IMG/VR virus record: IMGVR_UViG_3300033142_001318 | Span: 1-52,218 of that record | Direction: 5' to 3' (one strand) | DNA: 52,218 nucleotides | Source of the DNA: a virus | In this document: piece after piece, positions 6,704 through 45,566 of the stretch | How the letters are laid out: each line of letters starts with the position of its first letter | Position numbering within the stretch: position 1 is the stretch's first letter | Notes under the pieces: generated by a model | Databases searched by the model: none | Seen by the model: only the letters and a program-made list of their open reading frames with translations | What the model was told of the DNA's origin: nothing | Made by a program: the position numbers and the translations under genes

Positions 6704-6837
6704 TGGGTAATGTTAGAAAGGGATTGGATGATATCTATGGCTATGGAGTACTTTTAGATATTTCCAAATTTATGGAAGAACAATATAAAAATAGATATAA
6801 GATTAGGGATGATATAAGTGGACGGTATATTAAATAA
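6703..6837 (+). CDS. Small hypothetical protein
   Basis: The ATG at 6703 overlaps the stop of the response regulator (TGATG), and the frame gives 44 residues beginning MGNVRKGLDDIYGYGVLLDI and ending in Lys/Arg/Tyr-rich sequence. Its 3' end overlaps the GTG start of the PocR protein by about 20 bases. No motif is recognised; tight overlaps on both sides are the main support. Confidence 0.45.
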   Translation: MGNVRKGLDDIYGYGVLLDISKFMEEQYKNRYKIRDDISGRYIK

Positions 6838-7555
6838 AGAATTCGTAACAAATTTACAGGTATTCCAGAACCGATTTTCAGATTTCTTCGGTGTTGCATC
6901 GGCGATCTTTGATGACACGGGAAAAATGATTACAGAACCTTCCGGATTTACAGATTTTTGTAAAACGATACGTGCTACGAAGGACGGGGGTAGGGCGTGC
7001 CGGGATTCCAAGAAAGGACTTTTCGATATAGTAGCAAACGGTGAACCTGCAACATACCACTGTGCGATCTTTTCACAATTGGCAGATTCGATTGTTCCGG
7101 TCATGTGGAATGGTAAAGTTATTGCTGCATGGGCGATAGGACAGAAACGTGTTGAGGATATTCCAAGATCAGAAATCAATAAGACGGCAGAAAGGATCGG
7201 TGCGAAACCGGATGACTTGTGGGCTGGTTACGAAAAACTACCACTTACCACGATGGATGAGTTTGAGAAGGCTGTGTTTTTCCTTCATACCACGATTTCA
7301 ACGATCATGAAGATGCGGGAACAAGATATTGAATTAAAAGAAACCTTGGATAAATTTACAACTATAAATGGTATTGTGGCACATGATATGCGTGAATCAT
7401 TATCAACTATATTAGGATTTATAAAATTACTCGATAATAGATATGGTGCTACCGAAAATGATGAATTCAGGGATTTCGTGTCCTATATCGTTACCTACGG
7501 TGAAAAACTTAAAAATACGGCAAGCTTACTAATCGATGCCTGTGAAAAGAGGTGA
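6818..7555 (+). CDS. PocR sensor plus HisKA domain, lacking the ATPase domain
   Basis: The frame starts at GTG 6818. Residues about 10-165 are a PocR-type ligand-binding domain (FSDFFGVASAIFDDTGK, then Cys48, Cys61 and Cys82, and the strand VPVMWNGKVIAAWAIGQ). Residues about 170-245 are a HisKA dimerisation and phosphotransfer helix pair with H189 in the H-box VAHDMRESL. The protein then stops: no N, G1, F or G2 box of an HATPase_c domain follows, so it cannot make phospho-His by itself. It could form mixed dimers with a host kinase or pass phosphate to the receiver encoded upstream. PocR-kinase combinations are common in methanogens. Confidence 0.8.
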   Translation: MDGILNKEFVTNLQVFQNRFSDFFGVASAIFDDTGKMITEPSGFTDFCKTIRATKDGGRACRDSKKGLFDIVANGEPATYHCAIFSQLADSIVPVMWNGKVIAAWAIGQKRVEDIPRSEINKTAERIGAKPDDLWAGYEKLPLTTMDEFEKAVFFLHTTISTIMKMREQDIELKETLDKFTTINGIVAHDMRESLSTILGFIKLLDNRYGATENDEFRDFVSYIVTYGEKLKNTASLLIDACEKR

Positions 7556-14945: not shown

Positions 14946-15404
14946 ATGGCGTGGTATAATAGTAGTTGGTCGAGGCGGAAGGCAATCACCCTAACCGGAG
15001 GTAGTTCTGGCGCTCAAACCGATTATCAACTCAAATTAACGGTAGCATGGGATTCCGACATGAAATCGGACTTCTCAGACCTGAGATTCACGAAAGCGGA
15101 TGGCACAACCCTCCTCGATGCCTGGATGGAATCGCATACTGCGTCCACATCTGCCGTTGTATGGGTTGAAACTGATACCCCGGCAAACACTGTGGAAGCC
15201 GATATTTATATGTATTACGGGAATTCCGGTGCTTCGAGTGATTGGGATGGAGACGCTACATTTAAATTTTTCGATGATTTTGAGGGCGATCTAAGTAAAT
15301 GGACAAATGAATCAGGTGGCGCATTAGCTATTGTTACCGATCCGACAGTACTTCGACTCAAGAATCTTATGCTTCATTTACAAACCAAACAAGTGACTTT
15401 GTAA
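14946..15404 (+). CDS. DUF2341/LamG-like fibre protein, 5' part (frameshifted)
   Basis: The protein opens with MAWYNSSWSRRKAITLTGGS and continues DYQLKLTVAWDSDM ... DLRFTKADGTTLLDAW ... ADIYMYYGNSGASSDWDGD, the hallmark of the DUF2341 domain found in archaeal surface proteins and phage fibres. It then enters a concanavalin-like domain (FFDDFEGDLSKW) and runs out of frame near residue 135; the last ~18 residues are unlike the family. The proper continuation is in the frame of the next entry. Likely role: sugar binding at the host surface. Confidence 0.75.
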   Translation: MAWYNSSWSRRKAITLTGGSSGAQTDYQLKLTVAWDSDMKSDFSDLRFTKADGTTLLDAWMESHTASTSAVVWVETDTPANTVEADIYMYYGNSGASSDWDGDATFKFFDDFEGDLSKWTNESGGALAIVTDPTVLRLKNLMLHLQTKQVTL

Positions 15405-17133: not shown

Positions 17134-18801
17134 ATGGCAATAGATAGTGCGGATAAGCGAAAGTCGGCGGTAAATTGGCTCCTTCGGATTTTGCCTATCC
17201 CAGATAGTGTGATAAGTAGTATAGATAGAAAGCATGTAGGTGGATTTTATCGTATATTTGTAGGATTAGTAACTGAGACTATTACACTATCTTCTGATTT
17301 ATTAATCAAAAAGTTAAATGTTGTTGTTGACTTTAGTTCTGATTTATTAATATACACAAGAACTATTAAATCATTAACGTCTGATTTATTAATCAAAAAG
17401 TTAAATGATGTTGTTGACTTTAGTTCTGATTTATTAATCAAAAAATTAAATGTTGTTGTTGACTTTAGTTCTGATTTATTAATATACACAAGAACTATTA
17501 AATCATTAACGTCTGATTTATTAATCAAAAAGTTAAATGTTGTTGTTGACTTTAGTTCTGATTTATTAATCAAAAAGTTAAATGTTGTTGTTGACTTTAG
17601 TTCTGATTTATTAATATACACAAGAACTATTAAATTATTAACGTCTGATTTATTAATTAAGAAATTAGATATACCCGTACCAACGACTTCCGATCTGATT
17701 ATAGTTTTTAAGAGATACGAACTAATATTGTCCGATCTGTTAATCAAGAAGTTAGGTATCATAAAAGCAATAACTATAGATACGCTAATCAGAAGGGTAG
17801 ACAATGTTACAACCTTAATATCAGATATACTGATTAAGAAACTAGATATAGTACGAGATTTAACTACAGATCTGTTGATATATGTAAGAATCATCAATAA
17901 CTTTTCAGCCGACATCCTAATACGTGGTGAGATACTTGTATCAGCAACTATCGATGTACTGGTTGGTGTAAATAATAATGTTAAATCTGTAACATCAGAT
18001 CTATTAACATGTATTACAGACATTAGAAAAAGTACATCATCCGATCTATTGACACAAATCCAATTTTCAGTATCAACTGTGTCTAATATACTGATTAGGA
18101 AGTCGGAAATTGTAGATTACACGTCGGATTTCCTTATTCGTATCACGGATAGAATCAAGAGTATATCTACAGATTTGTTAATGATTGCTGTGATACCTAT
18201 AGTTATGATTTCTGATACACTAATCAGAAAGTTGAAAATACTAGTTCATACAACATCAGATATATTAATCAGTATTACAGATCTGGTAAGAACGACGACT
18301 ACAGATTTATTATTGAAGGGTACATTACCGATATCTATAATTTCTGATACATTATTTAGAGCAGTAGATATTATTAGGTCTGTGACTTCAGATTTGTTGA
18401 TATATACTAGGTATGACATAAATACGACATGTAATATATTATTTAGAAAAACAAATATAATACTATCGAATACGATCGATATATTATTAAGAAAAGTAGA
18501 TACGATAATATCATTTACTACAAATTTATTGTTATATACTAGAACTATCAAAGATGTAATATGTGATTCTCTTATAAGAAAATGTCACCTTGTGGCGGAC
18601 GTAATTGCTGATGTTGTGATTACAATTGAAGAGAGAATAAGATTAAGGTCATATATTAATATATCAGAAGACATAAAATCATATATAACTACTACGATAT
18701 ATAAAGATTCTGGTGTAACAACAACCATATCAGGATATTCAGAGACGGATAGTGGTATATCGATATCAAGATATTCGAAGATAGACCTGAATAATGTATA
18801 A
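17134..18801 (+). CDS. Giant 15-residue-repeat fibre protein (SDLLIKK repeats)
   Basis: After about 48 non-repeat residues, the protein (555 residues) is built from about 31 units of 14-16 residues with the core (S/T)-(S/T/I)-D-x-L-(I/L)-x-(K/R/T), for example SSDLLIKKLNVVVDF and SSDLLIYTRTIKSLT. The first nine are nearly identical; later ones diverge but keep the core. The last 50 residues leave the repeat. Regular alternation of polar and aliphatic positions suggests a beta-solenoid or other fibrous stack. A shorter relative is at 25599. I know no named family for it. The place among adhesins suggests a fibre shaft. Confidence 0.6.
   Translation: MAIDSADKRKSAVNWLLRILPIPDSVISSIDRKHVGGFYRIFVGLVTETITLSSDLLIKKLNVVVDFSSDLLIYTRTIKSLTSDLLIKKLNDVVDFSSDLLIKKLNVVVDFSSDLLIYTRTIKSLTSDLLIKKLNVVVDFSSDLLIKKLNVVVDFSSDLLIYTRTIKLLTSDLLIKKLDIPVPTTSDLIIVFKRYELILSDLLIKKLGIIKAITIDTLIRRVDNVTTLISDILIKKLDIVRDLTTDLLIYVRIINNFSADILIRGEILVSATIDVLVGVNNNVKSVTSDLLTCITDIRKSTSSDLLTQIQFSVSTVSNILIRKSEIVDYTSDFLIRITDRIKSISTDLLMIAVIPIVMISDTLIRKLKILVHTTSDILISITDLVRTTTTDLLLKGTLPISIISDTLFRAVDIIRSVTSDLLIYTRYDINTTCNILFRKTNIILSNTIDILLRKVDTIISFTTNLLLYTRTIKDVICDSLIRKCHLVADVIADVVITIEERIRLRSYINISEDIKSYITTTIYKDSGVTTTISGYSETDSGISISRYSKIDLNNV
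17290..17655 (+). repeat. Tandem 132-bp higher-order repeat inside the fibre gene
   Basis: Units encoding SSDLLIYTRTIKSLT recur with the GAT of the Asp codon at 17341, 17473 and 17605, exactly 132 bases apart. Each period holds three sub-repeats (15, 14 and 15 residues). Near-identity of the DNA indicates recent expansion, so copy number may vary between relatives. Confidence 0.85.
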
Positions 18802-20188: not shown

Positions 20189-21886
20189 ATGGTATTTAAA
20201 TTTGAGAATAATGCGTCATCTAGTGTGAATAATACTCCACTCTCTGCCGGTGATCTTACACTGAACCTCCCGGCAGGTGAGGGGGCTAATTTTCCGACGG
20301 TTGGTAATTTTAGATTGACAATCTGGAATGCCACTGTGTACGCTAATCCTGGTGATGATTCCGAAATGGAAATCGTGGAGTGCACATCTCGTACAGATGA
20401 TGTACTCACGATCATCAGAGCACGGGAAGGAACATCGGATGTAGAACATGCACATGGACGTAAAGTAGCATTATTATTAACTTCTGGGGTGTTCAATGAT
20501 CCGACACAAGGTATCTATAATACGTTTGTCGAAGATTCCGACTTCAATGAACAAACTATCCTCGTGGCAGTAACAGATGACACACCAGTAGCCGTAACAG
20601 TCGATGAAGATACCATCGTCGGTAGGATCACGGCAGGAAACGTATCCGCACTTTCTCCGAGTGATGCAAGGACTATCCTCAACATTGAGGATGGTGCAGA
20701 TGTGACGGATGCCGTTAATGTGGATGATGCCGGTGCCATTATGGATACCGACATCGTTGAAGATGAAGGTTTTGTCCGGAAGACCGGATCGGAGACTTAT
20801 GAAGCCATAAAATCAAACCTGAATGCATCTACAGTACCAACAGTAGATGAAGATTCAGGTGATGGTTATGCTGTAGGTAGTCGTTGGATTGACACGAGTG
20901 GAAACGCTGAATATGTATGTATAGATGCATCTTCTGGTGCAGCGGTATGGATGAATACGACCATATCTACAAATACTACACAAGGTCTCACAGATTTATT
21001 TAGGCATTATTGTTCACAGGTCTATGGATGGTGTGGTGGTGGTAGTACGGGTGCAAATTCCGACGTTATAGACAGAATAACACTTACTGCCGATACGACC
21101 AATGCAATCGATAGATGTAATCTATCTATTGCACGGTATGGTGTGAGTTCTTTCACAAATAATGTTTATGGTTGGTTTGGTGGTGGTGATGATGGTTCAA
21201 TTTCCGATACGGTAGATCGGATTACAATAGAGGTGGATACAACTAATGCCTCTGATAGGTGTAGTTTATCTTCATCTAGAAGATATCTCAGTGCATTCAC
21301 AGATAATATACATGGATGGTTCTGTGGTGGGTATGGAACTACTTATTCTAATGTGATAGATAGTATAACTCTAGCTTCAGATACCAATAATGCTGATGAT
21401 AAGTGTGATTTGAGTGTTGCAAGATATGGAATAGGGTGTTTTACTGACAATACTTATGGATTCTTTGGTGGGGGTGACACAGGTGCAATTTCTGATGTTA
21501 TAGATAGAATGACTCTAAGTGATGATATCATAAATGCAATAGATCGTTCTAATTTATCATCGGCACGGAGAAATCTAACGGCATTTACGGACTATATTTC
21601 TGGTTGGTTCTGTGGTGGATATACAACTTCAAACTCTGATATAGTAGATAAGATAGATTTAGCAATTGATATGAATAATGCTGTGGATCGTTGTAATATA
21701 AGTGTTGCAAGATATGCACCATGTTCATTTTCGGATCACTCATACGGGTGGATTTGTGGTGGTTATACTACCGAGGAATCTGATATAGTGGATAGAATTA
21801 CAGTAGCAAACGATACGGTAAATGCTGTAGATAGATGTGATTTAACCGTAGCGAGACATGGATTATCCGGATTTACAGGTAAATAA
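20189..21886 (+). CDS. Tail fibre with C-terminal six-bladed kelch-like propeller (copy 1)
   Basis: The protein has 565 residues. The N-terminal 260 residues form a phage fibre base: SSVNNTPLSAGDLTLNLPAG, then VLTIIRAREGTSDVEHAHGR, a linker with DDAGAIMDTDIVEDEGFVR, and DGYAVGSRWIDTSGNAEYVC (a collar motif of tail fibres). From about residue 279 follow six blades of about 48 residues, each starting (Y/H)GW(F/C)xGG and containing DRITLxxDTxNAxDRCxL...RxGLxxFT. Six such repeats predict a closed six-bladed propeller that binds the receptor. It is the only one of the four propeller genes with the fibre base, so the others may attach to it or replace its tip. Confidence 0.75.
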   Translation: MVFKFENNASSSVNNTPLSAGDLTLNLPAGEGANFPTVGNFRLTIWNATVYANPGDDSEMEIVECTSRTDDVLTIIRAREGTSDVEHAHGRKVALLLTSGVFNDPTQGIYNTFVEDSDFNEQTILVAVTDDTPVAVTVDEDTIVGRITAGNVSALSPSDARTILNIEDGADVTDAVNVDDAGAIMDTDIVEDEGFVRKTGSETYEAIKSNLNASTVPTVDEDSGDGYAVGSRWIDTSGNAEYVCIDASSGAAVWMNTTISTNTTQGLTDLFRHYCSQVYGWCGGGSTGANSDVIDRITLTADTTNAIDRCNLSIARYGVSSFTNNVYGWFGGGDDGSISDTVDRITIEVDTTNASDRCSLSSSRRYLSAFTDNIHGWFCGGYGTTYSNVIDSITLASDTNNADDKCDLSVARYGIGCFTDNTYGFFGGGDTGAISDVIDRMTLSDDIINAIDRSNLSSARRNLTAFTDYISGWFCGGYTTSNSDIVDKIDLAIDMNNAVDRCNISVARYAPCSFSDHSYGWICGGYTTEESDIVDRITVANDTVNAVDRCDLTVARHGLSGFTGK

Positions 21887-21887
21887 T

Positions 21888-22541
21888 ATGACAAATATAG
21901 ATATAGAAAACTATGAAACTTATCATAGTAATTTAAAAGAACAATTTCATGAATTTGCACAGAGAAAATCAGACTTTCAAGTCGAAAAGTTTACAGCGTG
22001 TTCTGATGGTACGATACCATCACATCAATATCGGCATACACTTGTCCAGATTCGTGTTGCACTTACTGAACTAAAAAGGCGGATTGTTGATCGAGAACGT
22101 CAAATCCGGGTTCGGGATCGTGCAATAGAAAATAAATCTGAAGACTGGGATTTAGATGTAGCAGGAGCGGAGACTGAAATTGAATCTCTCACCTATGATA
22201 TTGAATCAAAACTTATTGAGGTTAACGGTTACGCTGCAATTTTGGAACAACTTGAGAAAGAAAATGGTAAACCCTTTACGAATGCCGACTTTCAGGCGGA
22301 TGAACCAGAATATTGGAAACGTAGATTTGCTAGACAAATGCATGATTCCGTAATAGACAGACAGACCGGGTGTGGTCAAGGTAACCTTATTGCACTTCGT
22401 GAAGCATGTATAGATCCAATAATTCCTGGATCTCCGAATCAATTGGAGGTACTACCTATGGATGTTAGAGTTTTGGCATTAATAGCAGAAGGTGTCGATC
22501 TAAAAATGCTTGAGGAAGGCGAAGAGGAAGATGGTATATAA
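21888..22541 (+). CDS. Probable fibre assembly or attachment protein
   Basis: I chose ATG 21888 (AGGTAA upstream) over an earlier in-frame ATG lying inside the propeller gene. The 217-residue protein begins with FHEFAQRKSDFQVEKF, has a long helical centre (LTELKRRIVDRERQIRVRDR), then DEPEYWKRRFARQMHDSVID and a glutamate-rich tail. It overlaps the next propeller gene by 11 bases. A truncated relative of its N terminus (23517) precedes the third propeller gene, so the two kinds travel as pairs, as fibres and their chaperones do. Function is inferred from this pairing. Confidence 0.5.
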   Translation: MTNIDIENYETYHSNLKEQFHEFAQRKSDFQVEKFTACSDGTIPSHQYRHTLVQIRVALTELKRRIVDRERQIRVRDRAIENKSEDWDLDVAGAETEIESLTYDIESKLIEVNGYAAILEQLEKENGKPFTNADFQADEPEYWKRRFARQMHDSVIDRQTGCGQGNLIALREACIDPIIPGSPNQLEVLPMDVRVLALIAEGVDLKMLEEGEEEDGI

Positions 22542-23502
22542 GAGATATACATCAAAATATGTCTCAGATATGTTACGGGTGTGTCGAGCAAATAGATTTG
22601 TTGGTGTAATTATGTTACCTGTTGATGTTATTGTCTATGGAAACTTTTATGGTTGGTTTGGTGGAGGAACAACTGGAGCATATCACGATATCATTGATCG
22701 TATTACCCTTACAGATGATACAACAAATGCAATAGATAGATGTGATTTGACAGTGGGAAGATCACATCTTGCAGCATTCGCAGACAATACGTATGGTTGG
22801 TTCGGTGGTGGAACAATTGGAGCATATCTTAATATCGTTGATCGTATTATCCTTGCAAATGATACAGCAAATGCAATAGATAGATGTGATCTGAGTACAT
22901 CGAGATATGGTCTTGCAGCATTCACAGACGATACTTATGGTTGGTTCGGTGGTGGAGTAGTAGCGAATAATGTTGATCGTATTATCCTTGCAAATGATAC
23001 CGTAAATGCAATAGATAGATGTGATCTGATTGGATATAGATATAATATTGCAGCATTCACAGACAATACGTATGGTTGGTTCGGTGGTGGTATTATTTAT
23101 GCTGGTACTGCAAAATATGATGTAATAGATCGTATTACCCTTGCAGATGATACCACAAATGCAATAGATAGATGTGATTTGACAGTGGCAAGAGATGGTC
23201 TTGCAGCATTCACAGATTTAACTTACGGGTGGTTTGGTGGTGGTCTTGCAGCAGTATATAGGACCAAATGTGTTGATCGTATTACCCTTGCAAATGATAC
23301 CGTAAATGCAATATATAGATGTGATCGGAGTATAGCGAGGGAGGGAGTTGCCGCATTCACAGATGATACTTATGGTTGGTTTGGTGGTGGAAATGGGGAT
23401 GATGATACCATTGATCGTATTACCCTTGCAGATGATACCACAAATGCAATAGATAGATGTAATCTGACTGTAGGAAGAGAAGCAACAGCAGCATTCCATT
23501 AG
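22531..23502 (+). CDS. Six-bladed kelch-like propeller, receptor-binding (copy 2)
   Basis: ATG 22531 is chosen because the product then begins MVYKRYT, like the paralogs MVFRKLT (23617) and MVYRKLT (24651). About 38 N-terminal residues without a fibre base are followed by six blades (YGWFGGGTTGAYHDI, YGWFGGGTIGAYLNI and so on). Cores are nearly identical (DRITLADDTTNAIDRCDLTV) while the loops after GWFGGG differ, as expected for a binding surface. The last blade ends in AAFH. It overlaps the putative assembly protein gene. Confidence 0.7.
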   Translation: MVYKRYTSKYVSDMLRVCRANRFVGVIMLPVDVIVYGNFYGWFGGGTTGAYHDIIDRITLTDDTTNAIDRCDLTVGRSHLAAFADNTYGWFGGGTIGAYLNIVDRIILANDTANAIDRCDLSTSRYGLAAFTDDTYGWFGGGVVANNVDRIILANDTVNAIDRCDLIGYRYNIAAFTDNTYGWFGGGIIYAGTAKYDVIDRITLADDTTNAIDRCDLTVARDGLAAFTDLTYGWFGGGLAAVYRTKCVDRITLANDTVNAIYRCDRSIAREGVAAFTDDTYGWFGGGNGDDDTIDRITLADDTTNAIDRCNLTVGREATAAFH

Positions 23503-23516
23503 GAAATGTATAAAAT

Positions 23517-23627
23517 ATGAATAAAATCACAATCGATAAGATGAAGTCCCGGTTTAGTGAGTTCATTCAAAGAAAGTCCGATTTTCAGATTAAGAAGTTT
23601 GTTGGATGGAGTATAAATGGTATTTAG
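23517..23627 (+). CDS. Truncated paralog of the fibre assembly protein
   Basis: This 36-residue frame reads MKSRFSEFIQRKSDFQIKKF then VGWSINGI. FxEFxQRKSDFQxxKF matches the N terminus of the 217-residue protein at 21888. The frame stops 10 bases into the next propeller gene, so it is a relic or a miniature version. It supports the view that propeller and assembly genes were duplicated as units. Confidence 0.55.
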   Translation: MNKITIDKMKSRFSEFIQRKSDFQIKKFVGWSINGI

Positions 23628-24648
23628 AAAATTAACCCCGGCACGGGTATATGAGTTGTATTATGCCGGATATTATAGTCCTACTGTATTATTATCTGTG
23701 AATCTTATACTTGAGAAATATTGGGGTACCTCTTTTCTAACAGTGGATATGATGGTGAGGTTGCCACCTGGTATTTATGGTTGGTTTACCGGAGGGTATA
23801 TAGGTAGTGGTACAATCGTGAATATAATAGATCGTATAACGTTAGCTGATGATACAACTAATGCAATCGACAGATGTGATCTAACTACTGAAAAATCGTC
23901 GATGGCAGATTTTACAAATGGTATTCATGGTTGGATAGGTGGTGGAAATATTTCTAGTGGTATTTCAGATACGGTAGAGAGGATAACGTTAACTGATGAT
24001 ACAACTAATGCAATCGACAGATGTAATTTAGTGGCATCTCGTAGTGCGTTAGCAGGTGTTACAGATAATATCCATGGTTGGTTTGCTGGTGGTGATTATG
24101 GTTTACCGTGTGATATAGTAGATCGTATTACATTAGCAGATGATACGACTGATGCACTTGATAGATGTAACTTGAGTACTGGCAGATGGGCATTAGCAGG
24201 CTTTACAGATTCTACTCATGGGTGGTTCATGGGCGGAGTGGGATACCAACCGGAGGATATAGTAGATCGAATAACATTTGCAGATGATACAACTAATGCG
24301 ATTGATAGATGCAATTTAACTATACAAAAATATTGGCACGCCGCCTTTGCAGATTCAACTTATGGGTGGTCTGTTGGTGGGATGGGGATGGCTGGTGTAG
24401 TTGATATAATAGATCGTATAATGTTAGCTGATGATACAACTAATGCAATCGACAGATGTGATCTAACTATTGCTCGATATGGCACTTCCGCTTTTACAGA
24501 TTTAACTTACGGGTGGTTTGGTGGTGGATACGCTACAATATCCTACGATATAGTAGATCGAATTACATTAGCAGATGATACGACTAATGCTATCGATAGA
24601 TGTGATTTAACTGTTGGAAGATCAAGATTAGCAGGATTCACGGGGTAA
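23617..24648 (+). CDS. Six-bladed kelch-like propeller, receptor-binding (copy 3)
   Basis: The 343-residue protein starts MVFRKLTPARVYEL, has a hydrophobic segment to about residue 50, then six blades: YGWFTGG, HGWIGGG, HGWFAGG, HGWFMGG, YGWSVGG, YGWFGGG. Blade 3 carries the loop DYGLPCDIVDR, found again in blade 5 of the next gene; blades 5-6 share RYGTSAFTDLTYGWFG with blades 2-3 of the next gene. That indicates gene conversion between copies. Presumed role is host receptor binding. Confidence 0.7.
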   Translation: MVFRKLTPARVYELYYAGYYSPTVLLSVNLILEKYWGTSFLTVDMMVRLPPGIYGWFTGGYIGSGTIVNIIDRITLADDTTNAIDRCDLTTEKSSMADFTNGIHGWIGGGNISSGISDTVERITLTDDTTNAIDRCNLVASRSALAGVTDNIHGWFAGGDYGLPCDIVDRITLADDTTDALDRCNLSTGRWALAGFTDSTHGWFMGGVGYQPEDIVDRITFADDTTNAIDRCNLTIQKYWHAAFADSTYGWSVGGMGMAGVVDIIDRIMLADDTTNAIDRCDLTIARYGTSAFTDLTYGWFGGGYATISYDIVDRITLADDTTNAIDRCDLTVGRSRLAGFTG

Positions 24649-24650
24649 TC

Positions 24651-25595
24651 ATGGTATATAGAAAATTAACACTATATCAAATGTGTGGGATGTTTGGGAA
24701 TGGTGAAATGGTAGAAAATTACTATGGTTGGTTTTGTGGTGGTACAACTGGATCACCGTCCAGTACAGTAGACCGAATCACATTAGCAGACGATACCGCA
24801 GCTGCAATAGATAGATGTACGATATCTGTTGCGAGGTATCAAGTCTCTGGTTTCACAGATTTGGTACACGGTTGGATAGCCGGAGGTATAAGTGAGGGTG
24901 GATCTCATTCTAACATAATAGATCGGATCGAATTAGCACAGGATACTACAAACGCTATAGATAGATGTAATTTATCTCTTGGGAGATATGGCACTTCCGC
25001 TTTTACAGATTTAACTTACGGGTGGTTTGGTGCTGGATTCGCTACAATATACTACGATATAGTAGATCGAATTACATTAGCAGATGATACAACGGATGCA
25101 ATAGATAGATGTAATCTAACTACCGCAAGAAGATATGCTAGCGCATTCTGTGATGATACGTATGGTTGGTTCGGTGGCGGATATAATGGTTCTATATTAG
25201 GTGTGATAGATCGTATTACATTAGCAGATGATACGACTGATGCACTTGATAGATGTGATTTGAATGTACCGAGGTACGGTTTAACGGGTTTTACAGATGA
25301 TATCTATGGTTGGTTTGCTGGTGGTGATTATGGTCTACCGTGTGATATAGTAGATCGGATGACATTAGCAGATGATACGAATAATGCTATCGATAGATGT
25401 GATCTGAGTACGATTAGATATCACATGACGTCATTCACGGATCTGAATTATGGTTGGTTCGGTGGCGGATATTGGAGTACATATTCTGATACTGTGGATA
25501 GAATCACGTTGAATAACGATACCGTGAATGCAATGGATAGATGTGATCTAACTGTCGCGAGATATGGACTTACTGGATTTGCAAATCGGGAGTAA
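24651..25595 (+). CDS. Six-bladed kelch-like propeller, receptor-binding (copy 4)
   Basis: The 314-residue protein starts MVYRKLTLYQMCGM two bases after the preceding stop. Six blades begin near residue 25: YGWFCGG, HGWIAGG, YGWFGAG, YGWFGGG, YGWFAGG, YGWFGGG. Cores are conserved with Cys in DRC at each blade. Loops vary most, except those shared with copy 3. Four propellers in a row give this virus a set of alternative or combined receptor binders. Confidence 0.7.
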   Translation: MVYRKLTLYQMCGMFGNGEMVENYYGWFCGGTTGSPSSTVDRITLADDTAAAIDRCTISVARYQVSGFTDLVHGWIAGGISEGGSHSNIIDRIELAQDTTNAIDRCNLSLGRYGTSAFTDLTYGWFGAGFATIYYDIVDRITLADDTTDAIDRCNLTTARRYASAFCDDTYGWFGGGYNGSILGVIDRITLADDTTDALDRCDLNVPRYGLTGFTDDIYGWFAGGDYGLPCDIVDRMTLADDTNNAIDRCDLSTIRYHMTSFTDLNYGWFGGGYWSTYSDTVDRITLNNDTVNAMDRCDLTVARYGLTGFANRE

Positions 25596-25598
25596 TAA

Positions 25599-26303
25599 AT
25601 GAATACATCAGAATTGAATACAACAGAATTAAATACACCCGGTGTCGAAGGTGTAAAATCTAAGGGTATAACAGTAGATGTTAAATTAGTATTACTCTTG
25701 GGCGTAAGTGTTGTATCTGATGTGATAATAAAATTGACAGGGGCGGATATATCTACAAATATCGATATAATCATAAAGAAATTACGTTTATTATTACATG
25801 TGAATACGGATATGATAATGATGTCACGGAGTTATATATATCCAACTATAGATACACTAATTAGAAAGAGTATAGATAAATCATTAATTATAGATGTATT
25901 AATAAGATTAAACGACACTGTGAAGGATATTACTACTGATGTAAATATATTTAGTCGTGGTTATGAAAATTTCAGCGTAGATGTAGTTATAGGGAGAAGA
26001 TACGATATAATAATACAAACATCATCAGATATACTTATGAAGATGCTTAATCAATTAACTACATTGACAAGTGATGTCTTTATATTTGCAAGACATGTGA
26101 CGAGTATAACTACAGATGTGATGATGAAAAAGTTTGGTGATATTGTATATACAAATGCAGATATTATAATAGGCATGGGAGGTATGATACACGGAGATCC
26201 TACATTTGTAGATCCGAGGGATTCAAACATAGATACGGTAGATATGATTCATGGAACTCCAACGTTTGTAGATCCGATGGATACAGATATCGAATATATA
26301 TAA
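25599..26303 (+). CDS. Shorter SDxLI-repeat protein, relative of the 555-residue fibre
   Basis: The 234-residue protein begins with an NT-ELN repeat (MNTSELNTTELNTPGVEG), a short motif seen at the start of phage fibre proteins. About eleven units follow with the core (S/T/N)-x-D-(V/I/M)-x-I (VVSDVIIKL, TIDTLIRK, SSDILMKM), as in the gene at 17134. The end has two copies of MIHG(D/T)PTFVDPxD. Both repeat proteins flank the propeller set, suggesting parts of the same fibre complex. Confidence 0.5.
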   Translation: MNTSELNTTELNTPGVEGVKSKGITVDVKLVLLLGVSVVSDVIIKLTGADISTNIDIIIKKLRLLLHVNTDMIMMSRSYIYPTIDTLIRKSIDKSLIIDVLIRLNDTVKDITTDVNIFSRGYENFSVDVVIGRRYDIIIQTSSDILMKMLNQLTTLTSDVFIFARHVTSITTDVMMKKFGDIVYTNADIIIGMGGMIHGDPTFVDPRDSNIDTVDMIHGTPTFVDPMDTDIEYI

Positions 26304-42333: not shown

Positions 42334-43479
42334 CTAAATAATACGAACAAATACGGGAAATCTTAATTTTTTCATTTTAGTTATCTCTTGATATCGAATT
42401 ACACAATTCAAGTGTTCTCCAGTATTTATTCGTTGTGTAATTTCTATTAATTGATTATCACTGAAACCTGTACCCACTTTTGTCTGTACACCACTTAGAC
42501 CTTCAGGCTCAACTATGATTGCACCGAGTACATTACTACGTTTACCGGTACCTGTAGTCATTCCCACAATCCGGGCATTCAAATCCTGCATAAGTTTTCT
42601 CTTAATCCAACCTCGATTTTTCGGTTTATAGACAGCACTGGGATCTTTCGCTATAACACCTTCCGCGCCGGTTTCCCGGATCCAATCATCCACATCGTCC
42701 AATGTGGAAAGATCAAGAATTTCCGGGATACTTACACGACCGGAAAGGTCAAGTCCTTCGAGCTTTGTACGCCTGTGCGTAAGGGATTGATCCATGATGT
42801 TTTGACCATCAACATAAAGGGCATCAAAAACCTGATACTGGACATCGTTTCCGTGACGTCTAAGAGACTCGAAGACACCGTCCATAGCCAGGATCTCTCC
42901 ATCAACGACTGAACCTTCCGGTAGACACCGTTCAAGTTCCTGTGTAATCCGTTCAGACACAAGGGGTTTACCATTTCTACTGTGGAGTATCACTTCTCCG
43001 TCTACCTTTCGGGCTACTAATCTGTAACCATCTAGTTTTGGTTCGATTTGGTACTCTGATGGGTTGAATTCTTTCGCTTTAGCTAACATCGGAGATATTA
43101 TATCACCAATCCCACTATTAACCCGGTGAATTGTCACACCGAGTCCGAGGTTACCACCGAGACCATATAAGGCTTGACCCACGAAATCCTTCTCGTCCTG
43201 TGTAAGTGTGATCCCATGGACGATATTCCGTTTTTCTGTACTGGAACCTATCTTCGATGCCACATCGAAGGCATCAATAAGGTATTCTAATGTGGAAGAC
43301 CGATGTCCCATATTGATCTCCTGATAAATTTCAGTACCGATTCCTACCATGGGAATATTAGCACCCAATAAGTCCTGGATTTGTGGGGACAAAGTGGCGA
43401 TGTATGCTAACTTTTCTTTTTTCGTACCTAAATTCCGGATAGCGTTAGCTTTATCCATCACTGTGGATATTGTTGTCAT
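42334..43479 (-). CDS. ATP-dependent DNA ligase
   Basis: The 381-residue protein has the ligase motifs in order: motif I EPKLDGYR with nucleophile K148, motif III SVVDGEIL (about 190-197), motif IV EGVIAKD, motif V RGWIKRKLM, then an OB-fold C terminus (RIVGMTTGTGKRSNVLG, QTKVGTGFSD). The N-terminal 130 residues are a helical DNA-binding part. It seals nicks using ATP. Length is shorter than cellular archaeal ligases (about 550-600), as in viruses. Its ATG overlaps the stop of a small upstream gene. Confidence 0.9.
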   Translation of the reverse strand: MTTISTVMDKANAIRNLGTKKEKLAYIATLSPQIQDLLGANIPMVGIGTEIYQEINMGHRSSTLEYLIDAFDVASKIGSSTEKRNIVHGITLTQDEKDFVGQALYGLGGNLGLGVTIHRVNSGIGDIISPMLAKAKEFNPSEYQIEPKLDGYRLVARKVDGEVILHSRNGKPLVSERITQELERCLPEGSVVDGEILAMDGVFESLRRHGNDVQYQVFDALYVDGQNIMDQSLTHRRTKLEGLDLSGRVSIPEILDLSTLDDVDDWIRETGAEGVIAKDPSAVYKPKNRGWIKRKLMQDLNARIVGMTTGTGKRSNVLGAIIVEPEGLSGVQTKVGTGFSDNQLIEITQRINTGEHLNCVIRYQEITKMKKLRFPVFVRII

Positions 43480-43675: not shown

Positions 43676-44395
43676 TTATATCGATCGCATCATAATCAGA
43701 AATTCGTTAGCTTTTTCGAATGCACCCGGACGTGGACGTTCCGGTAACGAGTCTTTTTCTACCTTCCTCGATTCTTCTACCAGATCATCATATATTCTTA
43801 GATTTGTGGCTCTCATCATATCTGATACCTTACGATTTCCCCTATATAGATCTATAAGGGTATCTACGTGATCCGTTAGATCAAATCGATTAGATATCTT
43901 TGTAATGTCCGATTCGAATTCTCCTGTCTCACAGAGGTTTATATAAACCATCAGGGGACGGATTGCATAAATACATTTTTTCGGATCATTCCAGTTCATC
44001 TTATAGATAGAATATGCCCATCCCCGGACGTGGTGTCCAAGTATCTGTGATAGTGAAAGATCAGCGATTTCCATGAATATTGGTGGGTAGTCCACATACT
44101 GATATGGTGTGTAGACCCATTCCATTATGTTGAAGTTCGGTTTTATCAGTAATCTAAGAAATTTTTCGAGTTCGAAAATCTGCCAGTCAACCATCCTGTC
44201 AGATGAAAATCCTTCGATGGTATTTCTTGGCTTTCTCAGACCTAAGACTAGTGAGTTGTCTTCAATGAATACACCTCGAATGTCTGTGTCACTGGTTTCG
44301 GACTTAAAACCGTAAGTACCACTTCCGGACTCACAGAGTAATATAAGTTTTTTATTAAAATTCTCTATAAATTCTTCTATTTCTATATTAGTCAT
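43676..44395 (-). CDS. Predicted nucleotidyltransferase (RlaP-like)
   Basis: I chose ATG 44395 because it overlaps the stop of the upstream frame (ATGACTAA) and gives MTNIEIEEFIENFNKK. The 239-residue protein has the nucleotidyltransferase signature CESGSGTYGFKSETSDTDIR (GSxxxG ... S-D-x-D), then FELEKFLRLLIKPNFNIMEW and a helical C terminus, as in the RlaP family of predicted nucleotidyltransferases. Such enzymes are common in large phages; the target is unknown. Confidence 0.75.
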   Translation of the reverse strand: MTNIEIEEFIENFNKKLILLCESGSGTYGFKSETSDTDIRGVFIEDNSLVLGLRKPRNTIEGFSSDRMVDWQIFELEKFLRLLIKPNFNIMEWVYTPYQYVDYPPIFMEIADLSLSQILGHHVRGWAYSIYKMNWNDPKKCIYAIRPLMVYINLCETGEFESDITKISNRFDLTDHVDTLIDLYRGNRKVSDMMRATNLRIYDDLVEESRKVEKDSLPERPRPGAFEKANEFLIMMRSI

Positions 44396-44588
44396 CTTCA
44401 TCATCTTCGTCATCCTCGAATTCAAATAATTCAAATTTACTACAAACACATTCCAGACTTATGTCGTCACCGCGTAGATTACATGCCGGACGGTATAAGT
44501 CTACGTGTTTACAGCGCTCTACTAATCCAGTCCGATTGGATGTGAAACGGTTGGTCTTTAAGCTGTGTATATCCCTTATCAGGGAAAT
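44388..44588 (-). pseudogene. 3' part of a split zinc-ribbon-like gene
   Basis: This open frame has no ATG, GTG or TTG start. It reads RFTSNRTGLVERCKHVDLYR, then PACNLRGDDISLECVCSKF and an acidic tail EDDEDDEDD. Four Cys and one His suggest a small metal site. Its stop overlaps the next ATG, so it is translated in some way. It is +1 relative to the frame at 44509-44652 and the two overlap by about 80 bases, so they are probably one gene split by a frameshift near 44510. Confidence 0.45.
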
Positions 44589-44693: not shown

Positions 44694-45566
44694 TTAACCC
44701 CTATAACTGCAATGTGCTGTGTGTATCAAGGCGTAAGTTCTAGGATAATCGAGTTTAACCTTCTTTGCTCGGATTGCGTTTAAACACGCGCCACAGATGT
44801 TTTTCCCGTACTTATAACCGTGCTCATATCTTGATAGCCACACGTCGGCATCAGATATGAGCATTGGTGATTTAACGTTGTCATTGATGATAACTATGAT
44901 ATTACGTAGGTCGGTAGGCTTGAATTCGGTAAATTTTCCGTGTAATGCGTTTAGAATATGTTCATTTTGTGAAACCGGGATTTCCATTTCATCACTATAT
45001 CCGTACTCGAGAAGGTGTATAAGGCACCTATAAGACCTACACCTGTCTACAAACTCATTAATCTGTGTAGAAGTCAATCCAAGGTTTTCTTTATCATTAA
45101 CCCGTTTAGCAAACGCTAACATAGAAAAATGATTGACTTTTATCTCTTTTTCCATGCACTGTTTACGAATTTTATCTGGAATCTTGGATATATTATTTGC
45201 TATTAATATAATCGGGATTTTATTATTAATATTGGATATTTCTTCTATTTTCTTCCACGTTGTCTTTGGGAGACCGTCGCATTCATCGAGGACAACACAA
45301 ACATTCTCATTTTTAATTCCGGATGATAAATAATCTCCGATTTTGATATCGCCGGTTTTCCGGGTGTCCGAGGCGTTACTTCTGCGCATCGTGACGTGTT
45401 CTGAGTGTTCTATCACATCGATTAGTGTTGTCTTACCACACCCGGGAGGTCCGTGTAGAAGGAAAAATCTCCGGGTAGCCTTACCCATGGTAGTTTTGTT
45501 TAGGTAGTTGACTACGTCGGCCGCATTGTAGCCGATATAGTCTTTTGGATCTATGGGTGATATCAT
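44694..45566 (-). CDS. RFC-like clamp loader AAA+ ATPase
   Basis: The 290-residue protein has Walker A GPPGCGKTT (39-47), Walker B VVLDECDG (91-98) and sensor 1 IILIANN, and the N-terminal DYIGYNAADVVNYLNK part found in RFC large subunit relatives. The C-terminal 100 residues are helical with an unusual Cys-containing end (YGKNICGACLNAIRAKKVKL). It would load the sliding clamp or a similar processivity factor for the viral polymerase. No clamp gene is in the window, so the host clamp may be used. Confidence 0.8.
   Translation of the reverse strand: MISPIDPKDYIGYNAADVVNYLNKTTMGKATRRFFLLHGPPGCGKTTLIDVIEHSEHVTMRRSNASDTRKTGDIKIGDYLSSGIKNENVCVVLDECDGLPKTTWKKIEEISNINNKIPIILIANNISKIPDKIRKQCMEKEIKVNHFSMLAFAKRVNDKENLGLTSTQINEFVDRCRSYRCLIHLLEYGYSDEMEIPVSQNEHILNALHGKFTEFKPTDLRNIIVIINDNVKSPMLISDADVWLSRYEHGYKYGKNICGACLNAIRAKKVKLDYPRTYALIHTAHCSYRG

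Follow-up and report, generated by a model that had tools for sequence, protein, structure and literature searches.

The window, by which we mean the whole stretch of DNA analysed, is a metagenome-derived virus record of 52,218 bases, which may be only part of the virus genome. The record carries genes of the head, the connector and the tail. Four co-directional propeller genes of the same build (copies 1 to 4; Table 1) are located after the head genes and before the head-tail adaptor. Blade parsing divides each of the four into six repeats (blades) of approximately 48 amino acids. The N-terminal region of copy 1 matches two tail-fibre PHROGs (phrog_30299, E 2e-11; phrog_8469, E 2e-10) and is absent from copies 2 to 4. 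Copies 3 and 4 share 19 of their 20 opening bases.

A second gene family ('SDFQxEKF') accompanies the propellers. A homologue, 36% identical to the partner gene in the window, lies immediately downstream of a propeller gene in phage L024, and in phage L008 a related domain is located between propeller genes. Given these neighbours in two phages and the truncated remnant in the window, the array probably expanded by segmental duplication of a module comprising propeller and partner gene. The partner is probably an assembly or attachment factor.

Table 1. Positions of propeller genes, partner genes, shared tracts and the tandem repeat gene in the window.
Feature	Position	Strand	Description
Tandem SDLLIKKL repeat gene	17134..18801	+	Repeat number varies within the same virus population
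Copy 1	20189..21886	+	Tail-fibre-like N-terminal region of ~280 aa, then six blades; first blade at 21023
Partner gene ('SDFQxEKF' family)	21888..22541	+	Homologues beside propellers in L024 and L008
Copy 2	22531..23502	+	Short N-terminus, six blades; homogenised cores
Second partner gene, truncated remnant (MNKITIDKMKSRFSEFIQRKSDFQIKKF...)	23517..23627	+	DNA and protein resemble the start of 21888-22541
Copy 3	23617..24648	+	N-terminus of 53 aa, six blades
Copy 4	24651..25595	+	N-terminus of 24 aa, six blades; predicted model Kelch-like
Tract T1	24476..24581 (copy 3 blades 5-6) / 24985..25090 (copy 4 blades 2-3)	+	3 mismatches in 106 nt
Tract T2 (DYGLPCDIVDR)	24074..24148 (copy 3 blade 3) / 25306..25380 (copy 4 blade 5)	+	3 mismatches in 75 nt
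Tract T3	24119..24168 (copy 3 blade 3 core) / 25207..25256 (copy 4 blade 4)	+	Exact, 50 nt
Copy 2 blade 4 core	23128..23175	+	Identical to blade 6 at 23413-23460, 48 nt
Copy 3 blade 1 core	23841..23887	+	Identical to blade 5 at 24423-24469, 47 nt

Each blade follows a common layout: a YGWFGGG motif, loop 1, a core (DIVDRITLADDTTNAIDRCDL), loop 2 and a closing FTDxT. Blades of all four copies match phrog_19111, a family of unknown function. No relevant Pfam match, Kelch families included, was obtained for the propeller genes up to E 0.1, and a sequence search for a solved structural relative returned chance antibody matches only. A structure predicted from the single sequence was of poor quality (pLDDT 47); an alignment-based predicted model of copy 4 (pLDDT 67) places beta strands in six sequential repeats, and the best Foldseek matches to this model are six-bladed Kelch domains (E 2e-6, probability 1.0; VIA Z approximately 10). 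Superposition on Kelch domains gives an rmsd of 17-19 A and a TM score of approximately 0.2, because the modelled ring is open. Relatives that could be parsed in full carry six or twelve blades. On the basis of sequence and predicted model, the four genes probably encode tail-fibre-like, Kelch-type six-bladed beta-propellers. In loop 1, dN is approximately equal to dS, at sites that are saturated and poorly alignable.

Several other genes deserve mention. The gene at 6818-7552, amid the viral head genes, encodes a PocR sensory domain (E 2e-34) and has a weak match to HisKA. An RlaP-type nucleotidyltransferase (RNA repair) at 43679-44449 adjoins an ATP-dependent DNA ligase (42337-43479), and a clamp-loader-like ATPase lies nearby at 44697-45566.

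Tracts shared within and between propeller genes

Comparison of copies 3 and 4 reveals three tracts of near-identical DNA at non-corresponding blades (Table 1). Two of these had been recognised in a first-pass annotation, which reported that blades 5-6 of copy 3 are joined to blades 2-3 of copy 4 by almost identical DNA (T1), and that the loop DYGLPCDIVDR of copy 3 blade 3 recurs in copy 4 blade 5 (T2). Both observations hold: the T1 coordinates then given were good to approximately 10 bases, and the T2 match extends to the DNA. The three mismatches in T1 each alter an amino acid (G/A, Y/F and S/Y), and identity falls to 65% and 57% in the 60 nt on either side. The T2 loop is found only in the two blades that share it. 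The third tract (T3), absent from the first-pass annotation, is an exact match. Taken with T2, it shows that blade 3 of copy 3 is mosaic, combining the loop of copy 4 blade 5 with the core of copy 4 blade 4. Exact repeats of comparable length also connect the cores of blades 4 and 6 within copy 2, and of blades 1 and 5 within copy 3.

To define what is expected from shared protein sequence, we constructed a null model in which the protein and the alignment column were kept and synonymous codons permuted. The actual genes contain ten exact runs of 30 nt or longer, whereas the 500 shuffles gave 0.56 on average and never more than 4, and a run of at least 48 nt was seen in just 0.2% of codon shuffles. 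A GENECONV-like column permutation with blade-length rows gave a weak result (score 76; highest score among 100 permutations, 75), the test being under-powered because the row of one pair is mostly tract. The codon shuffle gave no significant excess in S-SKS1, L008 and L009, because their blades are too uniform.

The arrangement of the tracts is also informative. The blade offsets between copies 3 and 4 differ from tract to tract (-3, +2 and +1), same-position blades of these two genes are no more alike at the DNA level than blades in shuffled positions (P 0.91), and no pair among the four copies gives a clear same-position signal. Conflicting offsets, and the lack of any same-position excess, mean that a single whole-gene duplication cannot explain the tracts.

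The first-pass annotation had put forward a comparison of synonymous change in cores and loops. Within copy 2 the synonymous difference is 0.12 in cores compared to 0.43 in other alignable columns (P 0.002); a weaker contrast is seen in copy 3 (0.42 and 0.65, P 0.008). Between genes the difference is near saturation in cores (0.64) and other columns (0.68) alike, which rules out constraint on core codons as the cause of the homogenisation within genes. To judge from sequence, homogenised cores are the expected trace of short, core-centred conversion tracts. In the 12-blade relatives described below, cores are no more homogenised than other columns.

Do the conserved cores act as sites of recombination, as the first-pass annotation had it? 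The switch point between T2 and T3 and the right edge of T1 both fall within the core and, together with the homogenised cores of copies 2 and 3, favour the claim; the left edge of T1, at the start of loop 2 and outside the core, does not. The claim therefore stands in part.

Blade ancestry in relatives

Kin of the virus were sought with copy 4, the copy 1 N-terminus, the head-tail adaptor, the minor tail protein and the repeat gene at 17134 as queries. Three contigs were recovered (L010, L011 and L012), each of which stops short of the propellers and has no propeller match; no propeller-covering contig of close kin was found among public contigs, and a scan of a genome collection found no relative. 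The exchanges between copies 3 and 4 are deduced from a single metagenome assembly.

One of the three contigs (L010) is the same virus, with 16 mismatches over approximately 8.5 kb before the tandem repeat gene. It is without 219 nt (189+30) of the SDLLIKKL repeats present in the window, the difference falling at the end of L010, approximately 1.4 kb before copy 1 begins and 3.5 kb before its first blade. This hints that repeats in this genome recombine on short time scales, although these repeats are of a different family and an assembly effect is possible. A cluster of SNPs lies alongside the repeat-number difference (17134-18801 compared to L010:8571-9151), and L010 carries a 31-nt insertion at 6751, relative to position 15345 of the window, in otherwise near-identical sequence. 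The protein encoded at 25599-26303 resembles the SDLLIKKL-type repeat.

A more distant phage group, represented by 22 contigs, carries orthologous 12-blade tail-fibre genes. Three of the contigs (L041, L042 and L043) are nearly identical to a fourth (L044), and their 2,208-nt 12-blade genes differ at six SNPs only, all within 41 bp. All six convert blade 1 to the sequence of blade 2; after the change, the identity between the two blades runs for more than 100 nt, and the tract is flanked by identical sequence. The direction of the event is not fixed.

This event bears on the possibility that the array reflects ancestral duplication with no later exchange, in which blocks of blades were duplicated on several occasions and the stretches that are still nearly identical stem from the most recent of these. 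The array has clearly expanded segmentally, as the matching starts of copies 3 and 4 and the partner-gene remnant attest, and amplification of new propellers from single blades is common (PMC9218822). However, the tracts in the window are shorter than one blade and end inside blades, copy 3 blade 3 combines two different blades of copy 4, the offsets conflict, and blade number is always six. To these must be added the copying of six SNPs from blade to blade between near-identical genomes. We therefore consider duplication without exchange to be unlikely.

A second possibility is that recombination between co-infecting viruses imports sequence from a common pool, similarity inside a genome being a by-product. 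Two observations among the relatives favour it. Contigs L033 and L034 form a mosaic in which the entire second propeller has been replaced: identity is 93-99% in blades 1 and 3-6 and 66-83% in blades 2 and 7-12, with flanks at 94% (N-terminal region) and 97% (downstream). The propeller gene upstream of the converted gene in L041-L043 has a cluster of 12 SNPs (L044:1119-1368 compared to L042, in contigs otherwise near-identical), for which no donor blade was found in its own genome. Against this, loops at different positions are shared at a rate of 0.7% within genomes compared to 0.1% between genomes, half-blades at 0.3% compared to 0.015%, and the tract in L041-L043 exactly equals the adjacent blade. 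Allelic import is, on this evidence, quite unlikely as the general source of the tracts. In a further pair (L039 and L040), the contigs are identical up to 3291 bases past the start of the fibre gene and then unrelated, the result of rearrangement or of a chimeric contig.

A third possibility, that collapsed or chimeric repeats created false tracts during assembly (the window and its relatives are metagenome assemblies, probably short-read, and repeats of 100 nt are able to mislead assemblers), is very improbable given that T1 carries three differences, every reading frame is intact, the converted allele occurs in three separate contigs (L041-L043) and shifted loops are present also in the cultured phage S-SKS1.

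Across 15 orthologues of the 12-blade gene, blades 1, 6 and 12, which adjoin unique sequence, are matched best by the blade at the corresponding position in 32-61% of comparisons. For blades 2-5 and 7-11 the figure is 4-16%, where 8% would be expected by chance. For interior blades of orthologues the synonymous difference is 0.281 whether positions are the same or different. Third-base identity at same and different positions lies within 0.04 in six close pairs, and two of these keep a slight positional signal (0.86 and 0.82; 0.89 and 0.85). In the propeller genes of S-SKS1, equal loops (e.g., SPSYV, PAESPSTV and TPTQV) occur in shifted positions. Together, the L041-L044 event, the L033/L034 mosaic, the 15 orthologues and S-SKS1 show that blade positions in the relatives have not each been inherited in a simple vertical line; that pattern is the one which the first-pass annotation had named as contrary to blade exchange.

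Probable concerted evolution at fixed blade number

The conflicting offsets, the L041-L044 event and the lost positional identity of interior blades give good support to the main proposal of the first-pass annotation, namely, exchange between blades and between genes. We think it likely that the locus harbours a tail-fibre-associated, Kelch-like propeller family whose blades evolve in concert through homologous recombination among the repeats. Under such a process, conversion-like tracts of approximately 40-110 nt would pair via the conserved core and copy adjacent sequence, within one gene or between neighbouring genes. What is copied would usually be the core alone and sometimes a variable loop. 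Blade number is constant at six per domain, which is the behaviour of gene conversion or double exchange; the exchange would thus preserve number, by gene conversion or double crossover and not by simple unequal crossing-over, or else unequal products would be selected out, possibly because their ring could not close.

The function of the exchange is less certain. The variability of the loops, and the N-terminal match of copy 1 to tail fibres, suggest that the propellers bind a receptor, that the loops form the contact surface, and that shuffling is favoured by selection. The first-pass annotation described the process as a mode of diversification. This is half right: loops are sometimes carried, but most detected exchange homogenises cores, and the L041-L044 event made two blades more alike in most of the contigs. 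It was further claimed that neither reverse transcriptase nor invertase is needed. The 52-kb record, which may be only a fragment, contains no match to reverse transcriptase (PF00078; controls were detected) or to serine recombinase (PF00239); the mode itself is already known. More tentatively, the multiple propeller genes may constitute a genomic bank of blades, from which core recombination builds new receptor-binding surfaces within a lineage.

If the loops do contact the host, then blade exchange at fixed number would be a cheap means of varying the tip of a tail fibre, requiring no dedicated machinery. It would also explain why positional ancestry of interior blades is nearly absent despite flanking genes that are approximately 85-97% identical, and it would mean that blade-by-blade phylogenies, or host-range predictions, based on such fibres will mislead.

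Comparison with known systems

Among the known propellers most like those of the window are the phrog_19111 proteins and the propellers of Synechococcus phage S-SKS1. This phage has the same blade family (YG[WY]FGGG...DRI...), multiple propeller genes and loops that recur at shifted positions; it differs in having paired domains (approximately 12 blades) that are partly annotated, and identity to the window is 35.9% over the best place. In the S-SKS1 records L025 and L026 the propeller genes are frame-broken and partly unannotated, and one seemingly spans the record ends.

High sequence symmetry between blades is also a feature of recently amplified beta-propellers, viral cases included, as presented in PMC9218822. 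There the symmetry is attributed to amplification of single blades; neither 'recombination' nor 'gene conversion' appears in the main text of that paper.

Exchange via conserved motifs is known from phage adhesins, and the mode is therefore not new. At the distal tail-fibre locus of T-even phages, recombination in conserved parts moves variable parts (Tetart et al. 1998, cited as ref. 66 of PMC12529663), and the Gp38 adhesin is described in PMC12529663 as having five glycine-rich motifs and four hypervariable segments. Gp38 resembles the putative receptor-binding proteins of the window in serving host recognition by a phage and in having hypervariable segments set between conserved motifs; unlike them, it is no propeller, and the genes in the window also exchange sequence between repeats and between paralogues of one genome.

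Exchange between repeats and between paralogues is found in the HNWD genes of Podospora anserina (het-d, het-e and het-r), the WD40 repeats of which swap within and between genes, generating recognition specificities (PMC1805685, PMC2873952). In both systems propeller repeats are exchanged within and between the genes of a family, and evolve in concert. HNWD genes are, however, fungal, NLR-type and highly variable in repeat number, whereas the family described here is fixed at six blades (or 2 x 6); and diversifying selection and phenotype have been demonstrated for HNWD, whereas the propellers of the window are known from their sequence. Should the notion of a blade bank prove correct, the array would be a fixed-number phage counterpart of HNWD. 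Given that relatives show the same copying, we conclude that the array exemplifies, in a phage, a known means of reshuffling recognition proteins and not a new mechanism. What is new is the phage Kelch-like setting, the fixed number of blades and the way in which interior blades differ from those at the edges.
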